Both the position numbers and the translations under genes were made by a program. 64,000 nucleotides of DNA from positions 39,370 to 103,369 of the forward strand of contig DYMN01000004.1 of NCBI GenBank assembly GCA_020740485.1, in the 5' to 3' direction. Within the stretch, counting starts at the first letter, position 1. Every line of letters begins with the position of its first letter. Shown here piece after piece: positions 24,550 through 61,430 of this stretch. The notes below the pieces were generated by a model. It was not told where the DNA came from, did no database searches, and saw only the letters and a program-made list of their open reading frames with translations. The DNA comes from Polaribacter sp. Lineage in GTDB: Bacteria > Bacteroidota > Bacteroidia > Flavobacteriales > Flavobacteriaceae.

Positions 24550-27500
24550 TTAGAATGTTAATTTGACATTAAATCCATACCTTCTTGAATTCCAAGAAGT
24601 TAAAAAGTCGAAACCTTGACCGTTACCAATTCCAAGTGAATTAATTTCAGGGTCGTAATTTACACCTTCAGGAACATTAAATGCTTTAACAAATAAATTG
24701 TTTGCACTGAATCCGACTGTAATATTTCCAAAAGGTAATTTTTCCAAGTTCTTCTTGCTTATACTATAAGATAAACTTACTTCACGTATTCGTAAGTTTG
24801 TAGCATCAAAAACCGCAAATTCATCTGCTCCTTGCAGTGCATAATTATCAAAGAAATAATCAGTGGCGGATATTACAACATCATTGGGTAATCCTGTGTT
24901 TTCATTCACACCCGGCAAAATAAAACCACCTTCACGATTAAATTCTGTATCGGTTGTCAAACCCCGACCTACTAAGGTTCCTATTGCAGTTGAATAAATA
25001 TCTCCACCTTGTTGATATTCTAGTTGCGCTGATAATCTGAAGTTATGCCATGATAAATCATTAACTAATGATGTAGTAAACTCAGGGTTTGGATCACCAA
25101 TTATTTTCACTTCAGGGTCAACCACATAATTACCTTCATCATTTACAATCATATTTCCGTTAATATCTCTTGCAACACTTGATCCCATAATAACCCCAAA
25201 AGGCTCCCCTTCAATCGCAAAATTACCTAAGTTAGTAAATCCGGCAATTGGTATAATTTGACCTTCTGTGTCTTGAACAATGTTTTTGTTTTTATTGAAA
25301 CTTGAACTTAATTCCCAAGTAAACATGCCTTTACCATAATCTTTGAAAGGAATAAAAGTTACTCCTAACTCAATTCCTTTATTACTTACAGAGCCAAAGT
25401 TTGTTGTATATAAATCATATCCTGTTTCAGAAGGTAACCGTCTATCTAATATTTGATTACTAGTAATCTTATCATAATATGTTAAATCAATATTCAATCT
25501 GTTTTTCAATAATTTTGCTTCCAAACCAAATTCCTTTTCTTTTGAAACTTCAGGTTTCAAATTAGGATTAGGCAATAAATTAGGGATATAGTTTGTTTGA
25601 TATAAAGTAGACTCACCTAAAGGATTAAAATTATAGAATGCATTTGCATTAACTCCAAGATATGTTCTAGTACCATAAGGGTCAGCGCCTAACCCGGGAG
25701 CTTCTCCATAATTAGCTCTTAATTTTAAATAATTTAAAAAGTTTTTACCTTTTAAACTTTCAAACATTGCTGTTGGGATTAAAGATAAACTTGCGCTTTT
25801 TGTGTAAACTGTATTATTATTAATATCAAAAACAGATGACTTATCCCTACGACCTGATAATGTTAAAAACAAATAATTATTATAACCCAAGGCAGCTTGT
25901 GCATAAAATGCTTCATTTTTCGCTAATTCAGTATAATTTGATACTGTGTCATCAGTAAAGTATTGATGGTTGAAGTAACCAAAAGCATTATCTATTTGTT
26001 TTTCACTTATTTGATAAAATGATTCTTTATCTTTATAGAAATAATTATAACCGGCATCTAAATTTAAATTGAATTTCTCTGTTAAATCTTTATTGTAATT
26101 CAAAATCAAAGAGTTATCTATAAGAGCATTATTAAACTCTGATGTTCTTAAATAACCATTAATATAATCACCATCTCCTGCCCCTTTTTGCACCCCTCTT
26201 AATCCATTATCATTATACCAATCCAAACCAAATCGGTAAGATGCTGTCAGATATTCAGTTAAGTCATAAGAAAGGTTTAAATTTCCGAATACACGATGAG
26301 TTTTGTTATTATCAGCAGAATATTCAGTAATCCATAAAGGATTAGTTCTATCATTACCAGAACGATACCATACGCTTTCATGGGTTATAGGATGTTCATA
26401 AGGATATCCCAATAAATCAACACTTGTAGGTAAATAAAGTACATTCCAAACAGAACCAATTCCTTGATATACGTCACTACCAAAACTGGCATCCGTTACC
26501 GGAGAAACTTTAGTGGACTTTGTAAAATTTAATTTACCCGTAACTTTGAATTTGTTTGTTAAATCAATATTACCTCCTAATGATAATGAGTTTCTAGTAA
26601 ATGCATTATTAGGCAAAAAAGAATCATCTTTTGAATAACCGTAATTGGCTGTATAACTCGCTTTATCACTTGCGCCTGCAAAACCAATAAATGTACTTAA
26701 AATACCACCAGTATCAAAATAATTTTTTTGACTGTTATGGGGTTTATAATCAATATAATCAGCATCCAAATCAGTTCTACCTGCCCAAATTTCTGATGGT
26801 AATTGACCAAAATTAGTCAAGGCCATACTCTTGAAAAAGTTAGGCACCTGATCCAATGAATCATATGCTGCTCCCCAGTTACTAAAGAATGGTCCATAAT
26901 CATTATAGAAACCTGCCCCATATTTTTGAGTATAGTCCGGTAGCACAACTTCATTAAAGAAATAGGAAGTGCTAATGGTAACTTCATTCTTGGTTGCTAA
27001 TTTATTACCAGTTTTAGTAGTAATTAAGATCACTCCGTTTCTACCTGCTTCACCATACAATGTGGTAGCACTTAAACCCTTTAAAATACTCAAACTTTGA
27101 ATGTTGTTCGGATCAATATCTTGAAATCTCGAAGCTGCATTCGAACTTTGTAAGAAAGATGAATTGTTTTCACTTACCGAAGAATCAAAAGGTACGCCAT
27201 CGACAACAAATAAGGGTTGGTTATTTCCATTGATAGAAGAATAACCTCTCACAATAATATTAGTACCTGAACCTGACAGCCCCCCTGTTTGTGATATTTT
27301 AACCCCAGGCGATTTACCGGTCAAAAGACGGGCAATATCGGTTTGTGGTTTAGCTTCCAATTCTTCAGCACTCACATTCGTAACCGCGTATCCAAGTGCT
27401 TTTTTCTCTTTAGAAATACCCTGTGCCGTAATCACAACCTCTTCTAATATATTAGAATCGTCTTCCATCACTACATCGATTACACTTGCAGCACCTACTT

Positions 27501-27744
27501 GTTTTTCTACAGTAACTTTTCCTACGTAACTAAATACAAGAACCTCACCTTGTTTAGCTTGTAATGAATACTTACCATCAAAATCTGTTTCTGCACCAGT
27601 TTTAGTACCTTTAATAAGTACGCTTACTCCCGGAAGTGGTCCGGAATCATCAGATACAGTTCCTGAAACTGTTTTTTGTGCAAAAACAAATTGCACAGAC
27701 AACGCTATGAGCAGCGTTAGAATTCCATTAAACTTTGCTTTCAT
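24550..27744 (-). CDS. SusC/RagA family TonB-dependent outer-membrane transporter (copy 1)
   Basis: A 1064-residue outer-membrane importer energised through TonB. Signal peptide 1-22; a carboxypeptidase-regulatory-like domain (about 23-100, VSGTVSDDSGPLPGVSV); a plug domain with IIVRGYSSINGNNQPLFVVDG and GRNGVILITTKTG; then the 22-strand barrel ending in SWNSRRYGFNVKLTF. It heads an operon with susD1 and two lipoproteins. The first 35 or so residues and the leader are almost identical in DNA to copy 2 at 32863, while the rest differs widely. Its promoter spacer contains an 11-bp tandem repeat and may be switchable. Confidence 0.95.
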   Translation of the reverse strand: MKAKFNGILTLLIALSVQFVFAQKTVSGTVSDDSGPLPGVSVLIKGTKTGAETDFDGKYSLQAKQGEVLVFSYVGKVTVEKQVGAASVIDVVMEDDSNILEEVVITAQGISKEKKALGYAVTNVSAEELEAKPQTDIARLLTGKSPGVKISQTGGLSGSGTNIIVRGYSSINGNNQPLFVVDGVPFDSSVSENNSSFLQSSNAASRFQDIDPNNIQSLSILKGLSATTLYGEAGRNGVILITTKTGNKLATKNEVTISTSYFFNEVVLPDYTQKYGAGFYNDYGPFFSNWGAAYDSLDQVPNFFKSMALTNFGQLPSEIWAGRTDLDADYIDYKPHNSQKNYFDTGGILSTFIGFAGASDKASYTANYGYSKDDSFLPNNAFTRNSLSLGGNIDLTNKFKVTGKLNFTKSTKVSPVTDASFGSDVYQGIGSVWNVLYLPTSVDLLGYPYEHPITHESVWYRSGNDRTNPLWITEYSADNNKTHRVFGNLNLSYDLTEYLTASYRFGLDWYNDNGLRGVQKGAGDGDYINGYLRTSEFNNALIDNSLILNYNKDLTEKFNLNLDAGYNYFYKDKESFYQISEKQIDNAFGYFNHQYFTDDTVSNYTELAKNEAFYAQAALGYNNYLFLTLSGRRDKSSVFDINNNTVYTKSASLSLIPTAMFESLKGKNFLNYLKLRANYGEAPGLGADPYGTRTYLGVNANAFYNFNPLGESTLYQTNYIPNLLPNPNLKPEVSKEKEFGLEAKLLKNRLNIDLTYYDKITSNQILDRRLPSETGYDLYTTNFGSVSNKGIELGVTFIPFKDYGKGMFTWELSSSFNKNKNIVQDTEGQIIPIAGFTNLGNFAIEGEPFGVIMGSSVARDINGNMIVNDEGNYVVDPEVKIIGDPNPEFTTSLVNDLSWHNFRLSAQLEYQQGGDIYSTAIGTLVGRGLTTDTEFNREGGFILPGVNENTGLPNDVVISATDYFFDNYALQGADEFAVFDATNLRIREVSLSYSISKKNLEKLPFGNITVGFSANNLFVKAFNVPEGVNYDPEINSLGIGNGQGFDFLTSWNSRRYGFNVKLTF

Positions 27745-27771
27745 TTGTTAATTGTTTGAATTAATTAAATG

Positions 27772-27836
27772 CAAATATCATAAAAATATCATAAAAATAT
27801 CATAAAAATATCATAAAATTATCTTAAATTACAAAA
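27772..27836 (-). promoter_or_regulatory. susC1 promoter region with repeat-expanded spacer
   Basis: On the minus strand the sequence GATATTTG (27772-27779) is identical to the -7 box of susC2. The nearest TTTG (27832-27835) is 52 bases away instead of 19, the difference being exactly three 11-bp units. The outermost repeat copy carries GATATTTT placed 19 bases from the TTTG, so a weaker alternative -7 may exist there. Confidence 0.5.
27775..27818. repeat. 11-bp tandem repeat, four perfect copies of ATATCATAAAA
   Basis: Copies at 27775-27785, 27786-27796, 27797-27807 and 27808-27818 are identical; a degenerate fifth continues to about 27829. The array sits between the probable -7 and -33 elements of the susC1 promoter. 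Confidence 0.9.
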
Positions 27837-28058
27837 TATTTTCTTTTAATATAACATATGAATTACTATATTTTAATGAAAAAATATTAAAAACCAAACA
27901 CAAAATTATTATCAATATAATGTTTTAATGCTTTTTGATTACTTTATTGTACTAATACTTGTTTTTTAATAGTTAATTGACCTAATTAATAATTATTTAA
28001 CATTTAGAAATTTTAAACAATCAATAGATAAATTTATCTAAATAATCATTAAAATAAA

Positions 28059-28080
28059 AAAGACCGCCGAAGCGGTCTTT
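28059..28080 (-). terminator. terminator of the susC2-susD2 operon
   Basis: AAAGACCGC (28059-28067) pairs with GCGGTCTTT (28072-28080) around CGAA. The minus strand continues with a T-run, giving a standard intrinsic terminator 26 bases after the susD2 stop. Confidence 0.9.
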
Positions 28081-28105
28081 CTTTTGATTAATTAATTTTA
28101 ATTTA

Positions 28106-29560
28106 TTAATTTACATCCCAGAAAACTTTTGTTGAAGGTAAATCTCCTCCAATTGCTGCGGCTGCAGCTGTAAGACTAGGACCATTTAATGTTGCTTCAG
28201 ATATGGGATAAATCATTCTAACAGGGATATCAGAATAATTCATACCTGAAGGTGGAGTTAACATTGTAAAATCTAATCTTCTCCATATACTCCAACCGTC
28301 AAAACCTTGATTAAATTGAGATAGCCAATGTTGTACCCCAATTTTTTGTTTCCAATCAGTAGATAATGAATAATCTACACCAGGTAAGTAAGCGTTATAA
28401 TCAGCTTCAGTCCCCCCCCATTCTAATATAGATGCTTTTATTCCTGCTTCATAATGCCCTTTCGCAGTTCCACCAACAGAATATCCACGTTCAACTGCTT
28501 CAGCTAAATTAAATTCTACTTCAGCAAAATTTAAAATTGTACCTTTTAAATCGGGCATTTCTAAAGGAAATGTAACTGTAGAAGCGTCACCATCGTGAAA
28601 ATGTGAATATGCAGAATATGCGTTTGCATCACCATAAATTCCACCAGTGTAGTTTCCACTTGAAGCCAAAGAAAACCAAAGATGACGTCTTGGATCTTGT
28701 TTAGAATTCATATAATCAACAAGTGTATTAGCTGGCACAAAATCTTTTCTCCCACTTTGTATTAAATCAACCCAGATAGGATTAGTATTTGGTGTTGTAG
28801 CATAGTAAGTCATAGAGCAATTGTCAGCATTTGAAGTAAAAACCCCACTTGCAACAGCACTCTCTGCCAACTGTTTTGCCTTAGCATTATCTATATCTGC
28901 TATTCTTAATGCAAGTCTCAATTTGAGTGAATTAGCAAATTTTTTCCACTCTTTAACATCTCCACCATAGACCGGATCTTCGCTTGCAGAAAAAGCGCTA
29001 CTACTGACATTCAACATATTAATTTCATTATTTAATTTATCAATCAAAGATAGGTATATGTCAGTATCATTGTCATATTTTGGCAAAACATTATCGGGAT
29101 TTAAAGCTTCTGAATAAGGCACATCTCCAAAAACATCAACCAAAACATGATAAGTGTAAACCTCCATAATTCCAATAATTGAAAGTTTGTTTTGTCTTAC
29201 AATATTGGCTTGTGCATTTGTGACGTCTTGACTGAGTAATAATTTTTTAGATTCATCATAATCTTTTAAAACATCTCTGTATAACGTTCTAAATATACCA
29301 TCAGGTATAGATCTGGTAGTCATATTATACTGACTTTCATCAGGATAGGTACATTGAGCCCAATATTGTGCGTATAATCTAAATACATTACTATTAACAT
29401 TAATGCTTTGCATTCTGTCAAATAAGTTACGAGTAGCATCAGTAAACAAAGGCTCTGCCGGAATACTAGTGGGTGATTTAGGATCTGTATTCAACTCATC
29501 AAAATCTGAACACGAACCCAGTAGAATTATTCCAATAATAAGATATAATAATTTTTTCAT
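28106..29560 (-). CDS. SusD/RagB family nutrient-binding lipoprotein
   Basis: Partner of SusC copy 2. The 484-residue lipoprotein has a short signal with lipobox ILLGSCSDFD (Cys17), then NTDPKSPTSIPAEPLFTDA as in SusD_2-type proteins, a TPR-like region with YHVLVDVFGDVPYSEALN near residue 145 and KEWKKFANSLKLRLALRIAD near 210, and a C-terminal WSIWRRLDFTMLTPPSG followed by the conserved PVRMIYP segment. It begins 21 bases after its susC and is closed by a strong terminator. Its relationship to susD1 is that of a paralogue, not a recent copy. Confidence 0.93.
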   Translation of the reverse strand: MKKLLYLIIGIILLGSCSDFDELNTDPKSPTSIPAEPLFTDATRNLFDRMQSINVNSNVFRLYAQYWAQCTYPDESQYNMTTRSIPDGIFRTLYRDVLKDYDESKKLLLSQDVTNAQANIVRQNKLSIIGIMEVYTYHVLVDVFGDVPYSEALNPDNVLPKYDNDTDIYLSLIDKLNNEINMLNVSSSAFSASEDPVYGGDVKEWKKFANSLKLRLALRIADIDNAKAKQLAESAVASGVFTSNADNCSMTYYATTPNTNPIWVDLIQSGRKDFVPANTLVDYMNSKQDPRRHLWFSLASSGNYTGGIYGDANAYSAYSHFHDGDASTVTFPLEMPDLKGTILNFAEVEFNLAEAVERGYSVGGTAKGHYEAGIKASILEWGGTEADYNAYLPGVDYSLSTDWKQKIGVQHWLSQFNQGFDGWSIWRRLDFTMLTPPSGMNYSDIPVRMIYPISEATLNGPSLTAAAAAIGGDLPSTKVFWDVN

Positions 29561-32500: not shown

Positions 32501-32863
32501 GGAATAGCCTAACGCTTTCTTTTCTTTTTTAACTCCTAAAGCAGTAACCACCACCTCATCTAGAACATTTTCTGAAGATGCTACCATCACCACATCAATA
32601 ACATTACTGGCTCCCACTGTTTTCTCAGCAGTCTCCAATCCTACATAACTAAATACAAGCACATCTCCTTGCTTGGCTTGTAGTGCGTATTTACCGTCAA
32701 AATCAGTTTCTGTACCTGTTTTAGTGCCTTTGATCATGACACTGGCGCCGGGAAGAGAACCGGATTCATCAGATACAGTTCCTGAAACTGTTTTTTGTGC
32801 AAAAACAAATTGCACAGACAACGCTATGAGTAGCGTTAAAATTCCATTAAACTTTGCTTTCAT
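29582..32863 (-). CDS. SusC/RagA family TonB-dependent outer-membrane transporter (copy 2)
   Basis: A 1093-residue TonB-dependent importer. Signal peptide 1-22, carboxypeptidase-regulatory-like domain (about 23-100), TonB-box region ENVLDEVVVTALG, plug with NVVMRGNKSLTSSNQVLFVV and ARAANGVIVITTKKG, then a large barrel ending TYGFNIKLGL. It is followed by its susD partner and preceded by a clear Bacteroidota promoter. Substrate is unknown; no carbohydrate enzyme lies nearby. Confidence 0.95.
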   Translation of the reverse strand: MKAKFNGILTLLIALSVQFVFAQKTVSGTVSDESGSLPGASVMIKGTKTGTETDFDGKYALQAKQGDVLVFSYVGLETAEKTVGASNVIDVVMVASSENVLDEVVVTALGVKKEKKALGYSSQEVKSDELTNVKQNNFVNSLSGKVSGVQIRTNNNFGGSTNVVMRGNKSLTSSNQVLFVVDGVPLDNSVTNTSQQRAGGTGYDYGNAISDINPNDIESMNVLKGASASALYGARAANGVIVITTKKGKKRDGLGITVNSGVTFGVYDKSTFAEYQNEYGAGYGPYYGSTGYFEDYDVDGDGNLDLVVPTYDDASYGAAFSPNLLVYQWDSFVPESPNYMKKYPYMAAENGPGSFFQTGLTSNNSIDFSKVTENAAYRVGYTYYNTTGILPNSKLAKHNVSFNGNTKFNDKLSSDISFNYSYQDALGRNSTGYNDNLMSTFRQWWQVNVDVKEQERLYHLTKRNVSWNGGAPWAGDDYPLYWDNPYWTRFENYESDSRNRIFGNVGLTYKLMDWASVTTKFSLDKYNDVQEERREIGSVPVRFGILGLTNGQEDASGYMLYNRDYKEYNYDLLFNFNNDFSEKMSFTGLLGGNIRRNTISSVRASTNGGIVVPNLFALSNSTGASPTPSDFYGTKQVNSVFGNATIGYNDLIFLELTDRIDQSSTLPKENNTYNYWSASTSIVFSKLAQAEWLNLGKIRFNYAQVGNDTGLYNITDTYVKLENFGDATLFTVPSTKNNSDLKPEITKSIEGGFELSMFNNRLGLDFAAYKTNTFNQLLPSNITPATGFSSKWVNAGQIDNKGLEISLNAKIVKNDNFTWATNINWSKNISKVVELYNNPATGEPLKNLTLGSFQGGVSINATLGEPYGVLRGTGFQYHENGQRIVNSSGYYVAVSDQIIGNPNPDWIGGINNTLTYKNLSLNFLIDMQQGGDVYSLDMHYGQGTGVVANTVGTNDLGNPIRDPLTSDNTSGGIILEGVNADGTPNTKRVSAGYYGGVFYWGNSSRNPGQLTVYDASYVKLREVALSYKIPNKFIGKYFTDMSISFTGSNLWIISKNVPYADPESGLAAGNTQGYLSGSYPTTKTYGFNIKLGL

Positions 32864-32889: not shown

Positions 32890-32920
32890 CAAATATCTAA
32901 AAAAAAAGTTAAGGTGCAAA
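32890..32920 (-). promoter_or_regulatory. susC2 promoter: TTTG-N19-GATATTTG
   Basis: The minus strand has TTTG (32917-32920), a 19-base spacer rich in T, and GATATTTG (32890-32897), followed by C. Only the first base departs from TAnnTTTG. The distance to the start codon is 26 bases. Confidence 0.6.
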
Positions 32921-57705: not shown

Positions 57706-57795
57706 GCTATAAAAAGTTTGAAGTTTGAAGTTTGAATGTTTTGAGTTTCATGTTTACTATAAAATTTTTCCTTTATTTAATTTAAAGTTATACAT
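57706..57795. repeat. heptamer repeat AGTTTGA in the purN-purF gap
   Basis: Three perfect AGTTTGA copies at 57715-57735 followed by related GAGTTTCA. The gap holds no gene. Confidence 0.7.
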
Positions 57796-58374: not shown

Positions 58375-58555
58375 TTTATGGAATACGAATGATTATAATT
58401 ACGTTCCGATAGTTATCGGAAGATGAATTACGATTGACGAATTACGATTTATAAATTACGGATTAAAAATTACGGATTGCGAATTAGGTATTAGGAATTT
58501 TAACCTCATAAATTACAATTACTAAATAAAAAAATCAGATTATTAAACATTCTAA
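58375..58555. repeat. degenerate GAATTACG-type repeats and a CCGATA palindrome in the purD-purN gap
   Basis: GAATTACGATT-like units recur about every 15 bases (about 58426-58490). TTCCGATA (58404-58411) and TATCGGAA (58414-58421) form a perfect palindrome around two bases. No gene is seen. Confidence 0.65.
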
Positions 58556-59806: not shown

Positions 59807-59949
59807 TATTTGGTTATTAGACCTCCCCCTGCCCCTCCAAAGGAGGGGAGTTGAAAGTGTTATTGAGTTATTTGGTTATTGGGTTATTAGGTTATTGGTT
59901 ATTAACATATTAACACATTAGCAAATTAGCAAATTAGCAAATTGGCTAA
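59807..59949. repeat. short tandem repeats and a CCCCTCC/GGAGGGG hairpin in the purCE-purD gap
   Basis: CCCCTCC (59832-59838) pairs with GGAGGGG (59842-59848). GGTTATT-like heptamers follow (about 59864-59903), then GCAAATTA octamers (59921-59928, 59929-59936 and a partial third to 59943). The gap holds no gene. Confidence 0.75.
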
Positions 59950-61332
59950 TTAGTTAATTAAATCATTATCATCTTCAATTAAATCCAATTTCATTTGTTT
60001 GATTTCCTCAGTCATTTGCGCTCTTAACGATGGAACATTCAGCACTCTAACGGCTGCCAACGCTGCATTTTCAGGATGGATCACGGTCATGGCAGGCGTA
60101 AACGAAGGCATCATCAAGGATGAATTCACATTGACCAAGATGTCTGCTGCATCTTTAAACGGTGGACAATTAATCACAGGAACATTCAGATTGGCTGCCA
60201 AAGCGCCTCCCAATCCATTACTGCGTCCTGCAATGGCAATTACTGCCACAGGCTCTATGCTGTTATTAAGTAAGTTCGCTAAATCTACGATGCGTTCTCC
60301 GTTTTTGTGGGCTGAAATCAGACGCATCTGGGTTTTAATAGCATATTTTTCTAAATAGTCCATGATTATTTCAGCATGCGGAACATCTGATTTTGAACCC
60401 ATTAGCAAAGCGATGTAACCACTTTTTATCAATCTTTTACGAACCAAATTATTGTAGATACGGGTTTTTATATCCATCTCTGATGTCAAATATTTTTCAC
60501 CGGTGATGATTTCATATATCTCACGATAACGTTTGGATGTTTCATTTACCACCTCTTCCGGTAATAACAAGGGAATTTTTCCCTCTATTTTGTGTGCCAG
60601 CATCCATTGACGAACAAATTCCTTGTCAATTTGTTCTGCTTTTTCTGCATTTTTTTCATAATCTGCTTTGCTCCAAAAACGCGATGAATCGGGTGTGTGA
60701 ATTTCATCAATCAAAATTAATTTTCCATTGTAAAACCCAAATTCATATTTGGTATCGACCAAAATAATACCTTTTTCAGCCATATATTCTGAACCAAATT
60801 TGAATAGTTGCAATGCTTTTTGTTTCATAATTTGATACGTGTCACTATCCACTAAACCACGTGCAATAATTTCACTTTCAGTGATTTCGGTATCGTCTGC
60901 ATCTTTGGTGGTGGGTGTCAAAATGGGTTCGGGAAACTTATTATTGAAAGTCAAACCCTCATTGACCGGAACGCCACAAAATTCGCGTTGCCCTTCTTGG
61001 TAACCACGCCACATTGAACCGGTCAGGTAGCCACGAACAATCATTTCCACTTTAATAGGTTCACATTCTTTTACCATACTCACATTGTCATCAATTTGTT
61101 CTATCAAGTGATTTTCAATAATATGCTCTGTTTGTTTAAACCAAAAATTAGTCAACGTATTCAAAACACCACCTTTGTAGGGAATGGCGTTAATGAGATT
61201 TTTATTAAAGGCGGAAATGCGGTCTGTAACTACAATCAAGCGACTTTTTTTGTCAATTGCAATGCTGTCGCGTACTTTTCCCGCGTGAATTTTTTTCAGT
61301 TGCGGACTCTCGAAATGATAAAGTGTGTTCAT
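59950..61332 (-). CDS. PurC-PurE fusion: SAICAR synthetase plus class II AIR carboxylase
   Basis: A 460-residue bifunctional purine enzyme. Residues 1-300 are SAICAR synthetase (PurC): HAGKVRDSIAI, VVTDRISAFN, VRGYLTGSMWRGYQ, PEPILTPTTKDADDTEIT and LIDEIHTPDSSRFW. Residues about 305-460 are a PurE-type domain: LLMGSKSDVPHAE (GSKSD 312-316), SAHK (340-343) and AIAGRSNGLGGALAANL. The SAHK and AGRSNGLGG motifs are those of class II PurE (AIR carboxylase), which uses CO2 directly, as in animals and some spirochaetes; class I has SAHR and AGGAAHLPGM. The order matches vertebrate PAICS. No purK is seen nearby, as expected if class II. Confidence 0.88.
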   Translation of the reverse strand: MNTLYHFESPQLKKIHAGKVRDSIAIDKKSRLIVVTDRISAFNKNLINAIPYKGGVLNTLTNFWFKQTEHIIENHLIEQIDDNVSMVKECEPIKVEMIVRGYLTGSMWRGYQEGQREFCGVPVNEGLTFNNKFPEPILTPTTKDADDTEITESEIIARGLVDSDTYQIMKQKALQLFKFGSEYMAEKGIILVDTKYEFGFYNGKLILIDEIHTPDSSRFWSKADYEKNAEKAEQIDKEFVRQWMLAHKIEGKIPLLLPEEVVNETSKRYREIYEIITGEKYLTSEMDIKTRIYNNLVRKRLIKSGYIALLMGSKSDVPHAEIIMDYLEKYAIKTQMRLISAHKNGERIVDLANLLNNSIEPVAVIAIAGRSNGLGGALAANLNVPVINCPPFKDAADILVNVNSSLMMPSFTPAMTVIHPENAALAAVRVLNVPSLRAQMTEEIKQMKLDLIEDDNDLIN

Positions 61333-61430
61333 TTTAGTTAAAAGTTTGTAAAGTTTGTAAAGTTTAAAGTTTAAGGTTCAAAAAAGTCTTACGTCTTGAA
61401 GTCTTATGTCTTAAAGTCAAAAATATCAAT
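61333..61430. repeat. AGTTTGTAA and AGTCTTAxGTCTT repeats in the purH-purCE gap
   Basis: AAGTTTGTAA-like units recur around 61341-61372, followed by GTCTTACGTCTTGAAGTCTT-like units. No gene is seen. Confidence 0.65.

Follow-up and report, generated by a model that had tools for sequence, protein, structure and literature searches.

Introduction

SusC-type genes are known targets of promoter inversions of the Bacteroides type. In Neisseria meningitidis and Haemophilus influenzae, the poly-G tract of porA and the TA repeats of hifA/hifB lie between promoter elements, where, as outlined in passages of PMC3899988, steps of 1 or 2 bp shift the spacing around an optimum. In Helicobacter pylori the T-tract of sabA, described in extracts of PMC4081817, is a rheostat that adjoins the -35 element and has many graded steps. 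The housekeeping promoters of Bacteroidota (sigma-ABfr) have the form TTTG / TAnnTTTG, and in F. johnsoniae transcription starts 4-5 nt after the -7 box, as set out in parts of PMC6847099 and PMC7366714; the former also describes, for F. johnsoniae, a weak -33 motif and AT-rich motifs at -18 and -28. Arrays of the heptamer TAACTGA are depicted in sections of PMC4679880 as many, short, intergenic and often just upstream of start codons. Among the matches listed in a limited search of the open-licence literature, no title described a repeat switch in a Bacteroidota promoter.

The promoter of susC1, a SusC/TonB-dependent receptor gene in the 64,000-nucleotide stretch of DNA analysed here (the window), resembles these systems in part. 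As in the accounts of porA and hifA/hifB, the gene encodes a surface protein and a tandem repeat separates the two elements that RNA polymerase contacts, here predicted and in the order TTTTG, array, GATATTTG. Unlike the 1- or 2-bp steps at those genes, however, the susC1 unit is 11 bp long and copies the -7 segment, and the usual spacing and the usual box would come together only at one copy. As in the account of sabA, a promoter-proximal repeat could alter RNA polymerase binding through DNA shape or phasing, but the 11-bp unit keeps the helical phase and the family promoter profile predicts no grading.

In this paper we compare the susC1 promoter with its relatives, which are Flavobacteriaceae by title or genus and not Bacteroides. 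If the array switches susC1, it would constitute a slippage route to surface-receptor variation in Bacteroidota beside DNA inversion, with the unusual logic that only one copy is ON; even without switching, the comparison reveals a conserved SusC promoter class and a genome that is dense in arrays in its sampled part, which is a natural setting for asking how slippage reshapes promoters.

Materials and methods

Genome contigs were scanned for SusC leaders, which gave 76 stretches titled Flavobacteriaceae, Flavobacteriia or single genera, some of which we take to belong to Flavobacteriaceae. Pooled with the loci of the genus, these stretches gave 77 distinct upstream regions, one of them that of susC1; L083, with only 10 nt of upstream DNA, was dropped before counts were made. 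The promoter profile was built from 66 of the 76 upstream regions other than that of susC1, the remaining 10 falling below a 6-bit cut. One genus leader, L041 (G003:C59), was missed by the leader regex and stands outside the set of 76; it was read by eye and is counted as the exception among the genus leaders. Short weak leader matches (L043-L047) were excluded from the leader count.

Results

Anatomy of the susC1 promoter

The features of the locus, all on the minus strand, are as follows.

27832..27836 (-), predicted -33 element TTTTG (sequence and family profile)
27823..27827 (-), spacer box TTAAG, which fits the family TTAA[CG], one helical turn before copy 1 (family profile)
27773..27816 (-), array in promoter register, 4 x TTATGATATTT, with predicted -7 boxes GATATTTT, GATATTTT, GATATTTT and GATATTTG
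27805..27812 (-), copy 1 -7 box GATATTTT, at the family spacing of 19, with a last base (T) found in 0 of 66 family promoters
27772..27779 (-), copy 4 -7 box GATATTTG, with the family sequence and the family distance to ATG (27), 52 bp from TTTG
27745..27771 (-), conserved SusC leader (5' untranslated part) up to the start codon
24550..27744 (-), susC1, an intact SusC/TonB-dependent receptor of 1064 aa
22897..24528 (-), susD1 (PF12771, PF12741)
32890..32920 (-), susC2 promoter TTTG-19-GATATTTG, which serves as the one-copy reference
28056..28083 (-), terminator-like hairpin with T run, after susD2

The array consists of four perfect ATATCATAAAA units at 27775-27818 and a degenerate fifth at 27819-27829, in all 55 bp with a unit of 11 bp. 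TRF counted 5.1 copies and scored the array at 98, the top of 21 rows in the window. The longest matching run at periods 7-15 in the 361-bp intergenic stretch was 35 bases, whereas none of 2000 dinucleotide shuffles gave a run above 15; the array is real and far above chance. A two-unit pattern (at most 2 mismatches) was found at one place in the susC1 genome, and a pattern of nearly three units (32 bases, at most 3 mismatches) in one of 299 family genomes; that one was the susC1 genome itself, which rules out an array common to these relatives.

Read on the minus strand toward susC1, TTTTG is followed by 19 bases, GATATTTT, three further 11-bp steps that end in GATATTTG, 27 bases and ATG, so that copies 1 to 4 lie 19, 30, 41 and 52 bases from TTTG. 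The array is thus a tandem multiplication of a segment with a predicted -7 box (TTATGATATTT on the minus strand) and not a random insert in the spacer. The original prediction had named four perfect 11-bp copies, GATATTTG at 27772-27779(-) and TTTG at 27832-27835(-) with a gap of 52, and had set them beside susC2, where TTTG (32917-32920(-)) and GATATTTG (32890-32897(-)) are 19 bases apart; both sets of coordinates were confirmed. Its sum, 52 - 19 = 33 or three units, is correct, and is exactly three units because the unit carries the -7 box. The box that it saw at 19 bases in the outermost repeat (copy 1) is likewise present, as GATATTTT, with T and not G as its last base.

An ATG lies inside every unit (27773-27816(-)); were transcription to begin at copy 1, susC1 would be preceded on the transcript by short upstream frames that are out of frame with it (ATG ATA TTT TTA TGA).

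Downstream of susC1 lie susD1, two proteins without a Pfam match, a gap, and a subtilase with a type IX sorting domain. Given the terminator-like hairpin after susD2, susC1 probably relies on its own promoter. A known RNA element at 27500-28200 was rejected, as the nine Rfam matches there were weak and none reached the gathering score.

A conserved SusC promoter class

Like the sigma-ABfr promoters as described in parts of the sources cited above, the promoters of SusC genes in the family have a -33 TTTG and a -7 box ending in TTTG; they differ in that the first -7 base is G and not T (62/66) and in a conserved spacer box TTAA[CG], present in 55/66 as against 3 of 92 generic TAHHTTTG promoters from the susC1 genome and seven related genomes. 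TTG is present in 51 of the 66, at one or other of two adjacent positions, and GAYWTTTG in 52; the last -7 base is G in 63, A in 3 and T in none. Of 120 family genomes, 72 contain the exact composite TTG-N5-TTAAS-N10-GAYWTTTG, with 82 occurrences altogether; the reversed pattern has 5. The composite is absent from the susC1 genome (G000) because the spacing at susC2 is one base shorter. Within the genus, the shorter pattern TTAAS-N10-GAYWTTTG occurs at 8 places (5 for the control), six of them SusC leaders. When 30 composite places were fetched, 27 were followed by a frame of 300 codons or more and 24 fitted a simple SusC signal-peptide pattern. Relatives of susC1 in four genomes (G009, G011, G015 and G021) have the composite just upstream of the start; the best susC1 match, in G012, has no composite place just upstream of its start.

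The promoters of this class are also self-similar. When the 11-mer at the -7 box was compared with the 11-mer 11 bp upstream, the family mean was 7.05 of 11 matches, versus 3.50-5.38 at offsets of 7-10 and 12-15; the susC1 self-match is 9 of 11. The predicted SusC promoter class TTG-N5-TTAA[CG]-N10-GAYWTTTG, with its built-in 11-bp repeat, is sharply conserved in the family.

One-copy leaders in the genus

The SusC leader (untranslated part and signal peptide) occurs once more in the susC1 genome, at susC2, and seven times in three congeners, with an identity to the susC1 leader of 96% and 78-90%, respectively. All eight have a single -7 box, and seven of the eight have TTTG-19-GAYATTTG, 26-28 nt from ATG. 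The exception is L041, which has GATATTTG, no TTG at 19-20 bp and only one at 12 bp, and has kept its gene; on this account the -33 element may be dispensable. The susC1 promoter sits upstream of the conserved SusC leader, yet no register of it holds TTG, TTAA[CG] and GAYWTTTG together, once, at the set distances of the class. Copy 1 has TTG, TTAAG and GATATTTT; a hypothetical one-copy susC1 promoter would hold all three class elements, in the arrangement of the seven regular genus leaders.

Over some 137 bp (window 27650-27786) the susC1 and susC2 leaders share 96% identity though the proteins are 37% identical, a likeness that would reflect either gene conversion or strong constraint on the leader. 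In two congener contigs (G001:C103 and G002:C12), two or three SusC leaders stand in tandem about 5 kb apart, each with its own promoter of the class.

Predicted effect of copy number on the promoter

Against the 66-promoter profile, in which bits measure resemblance to the family and not strength, the present susC1 promoter reaches 14.4 bits in the copy 1 register and 12.6 in that of copy 4. The family ranges from 11.5 to 48.8 with a median of 36.0, and the present state of susC1 lies below 64 of the 66. A one-copy susC1 would score 31.2 bits. For any copy number from two to six, the score stays at 14.4 for copy 1 and lies between 10.1 and 14.2 for the last copy. Only a single copy is therefore predicted to restore a family promoter, and the spacing would not be tunable; a graded spacing switch was rejected since two to six copies score alike. 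The proposal that changes in copy number restore or break promoter spacing thus stands for the step to one copy, which would give the arrangement of 7/8 genus leaders and a rise from 14.4 to 31.2 bits, and falls for stepwise tuning of the kind described for porA and hifA: the only contrast that could count is between one copy and many.

Upstream of 185 free-standing genes of the susC1 genome, TAHHTTTG was enriched (57, versus 8.7 in shuffles and 5 reversed) and TAHHTTTT was not (36, versus 31.4 and 45), so that the lack of a final G in copy 1 is expected to have an effect. Even so, the T form need not be inactive, as GAHHTTTT, the form of copy 1, occurred upstream of 18 of the 185 genes (9.2 in shuffles, 8 reversed, 13 in reverse complement) and GATATTTT upstream of 5 (1.6 in shuffles), susC1 itself being counted. 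GAHHTTTG was found at 8 of the 185 (2.6 in shuffles), not clearly above the reversed control of 7, and taken with the GAHHTTTT count this control does not decide for boxes that begin with G. Enrichment of TTG 17-20 bp ahead of generic -7 boxes was only mild (15 counts, 57 boxes). The T tracts of the array lie one turn apart upstream of copy 4 and would, by analogy with F. johnsoniae, supply it with AT-rich motifs of the -18/-28 type; copy 4 may thus be functional as a promoter.

Probable slippage and an array-rich genome

In a sample of 369.5 kb, or 17% of G000, made up of the window and contigs chosen by convenience and not at random, the intergenic part (45.4 kb) held 46 arrays and the coding part 14. 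Seven relatives had 5 arrays in 42.0 kb of intergenic DNA (p 7.5e-9 against G000) and the two congeners sampled had 3 in 13.6 kb (p 0.003), so that the sampled intergenic density of G000 is about 8 times that of the relatives. Two relatives have a much higher G+C (0.45-0.46); G009, G001 and G002, near 0.33-0.34, are array-poor too. By score the susC1 array is 11th of the 46, and the 46 occur without regard to promoters. In a genome so rich in arrays, one array in one SusC promoter would be unsurprising by itself and would be weak evidence of selection.

Like the TAACTGA arrays as they appear in sections of PMC4679880, the arrays of G000 are many, short and intergenic, and many have a 7-bp unit; unlike them, the 7-bp units are of many sequences, and the susC1 unit is 11 bp and promoter-derived. 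Within the sample (window and L135-L150), 11 of the 46 arrays have period 7, for example GGTTTAA x 20.6 (L144) and GTAATTC x 19.6 (L142), and several intergenic arrays lie within 20 bp of a start codon. Short arrays precede four consecutive minus-strand genes (57714-57741, 58425-58499, 59859-59968, 61341-61365 and 61383-61418).

In the SusC promoter class itself, L106 carries an 11-bp segment twice in perfect copies, and degenerate period-11 arrays are present in L078 and L110; a comparable perfect array at the -7 box was found in none of the 76 other family leaders. Slippage could plausibly have begun from the direct repeat, one helical turn long, that the class has built in.

Discussion

The four tandem -7-box segments of susC1, where eight relatives have one, were probably made by slippage and are predicted to weaken the promoter, because no copy joins the family -7 sequence with the family distance to the -33 box. 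The 11-bp direct repeat built into the promoter class would have seeded an expansion by replication slippage, and RNA polymerase would make poor use of copy 1 or copy 4. The promoter would be regained if the three extra copies were lost, while gains or losses that leave at least two copies would have little effect, which would make any switch lopsided. Our confidence in this account is held at a moderate level because copy 4 may work.

It is possible, if doubtful, that the array is tolerated and near-neutral, with transcription starting from copy 4, from copy 1 (with a leader longer by 33 nt) or from another upstream site; in the first case a proper -7 box and the phased T tracts upstream would suffice and the -33 element would be unneeded. 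L041 does without that element, the -33 motif of F. johnsoniae is weak as described in part of PMC6847099, and TTG is enriched only mildly in the susC1 genome. The density of arrays in that genome and the intact state of susC1 fit such tolerance, as does an exact TAATTTTG at 27901-27908(-), which has no TTG 17-22 bp upstream. On the other hand, both susC1 registers stand at the bottom of the family scores, and TTG, TTAA[CG] and GAYWTTTG are kept together in the SusC class across the family.

A phase switch at susC1 is possible judging from the sequence. In its selected form, a stronger version of down-tuning by slippage, slippage would toggle susC1 between one-copy ON and many-copy low in part of the population; this we consider unlikely. 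It is suggested by perfect repeats within the core promoter of an intact surface receptor, by a family profile that one copy restores, and by a tandem neighbour, susC2, whose near-identical leader has the one-copy form. However, intergenic arrays are frequent in the susC1 genome irrespective of promoters, three units would have to be lost to get from four copies to one while steps between two and six leave the profile score unchanged, and the other family leaders (0/76) have no comparable perfect -7-box array. The first of these points, together with the GATATTTG of L041 that has no TTG at 19-20 bp, weakens the spacing switch of the original prediction. It is likewise unlikely that Bacteroidota have here a one-copy-ON contingency promoter, in which multiplication of the -7 segment turns a conserved SusC receptor down and slippage to one copy re-awakens it, in a lineage with abundant tandem arrays between its genes.

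Response regulators of the PhoB type read direct repeats head-to-tail on one helix face. That a regulator reads the 11-bp repeat of susC1 in this manner, or that the repeat bends the DNA, and that the array strengthens such a site, is highly improbable. In the family TTAA[CG] does lie exactly one turn before TTA[AT]GA, and the period-11 copies of L106, L078 and L110 are consistent with a multiplied site; yet the array units read TTATG, whereas T stands in the fourth place of the family spacer box in only 2/66, and the candidate sites overlap the -7 box.

An invertible promoter like those of Bacteroides, with the repeat incidental, is scarcely credible and was rejected even though SusC-type genes are known inversion targets, as no inverted repeat pair brackets the susC1 promoter, near which only a palindrome (28010-28055), an AT-rich pair (27882-27974), the terminator hairpin and an imperfect 19-nt AT-rich pair 3.9 kb apart were found.

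Signal-peptide codons

Separately from the promoter, the signal-peptide codons of SusC genes (window 27650-27744(-) and 32770-32863(-); L059-L134 and L171-L200) contain an inverted repeat, AACGCT-N6-AGCGTT, present in 58 of 75 distinct leaders and in 16 of 27 picked by promoter alone. The signal-peptide Ala codon is GCG in 74/74 leader-picked and 23/23 promoter-picked sequences, and the Thr codon is ACG in 23 of 25 promoter-picked leaders. In AT-rich genomes, this inverted repeat and codon bias point to selection on DNA or RNA.
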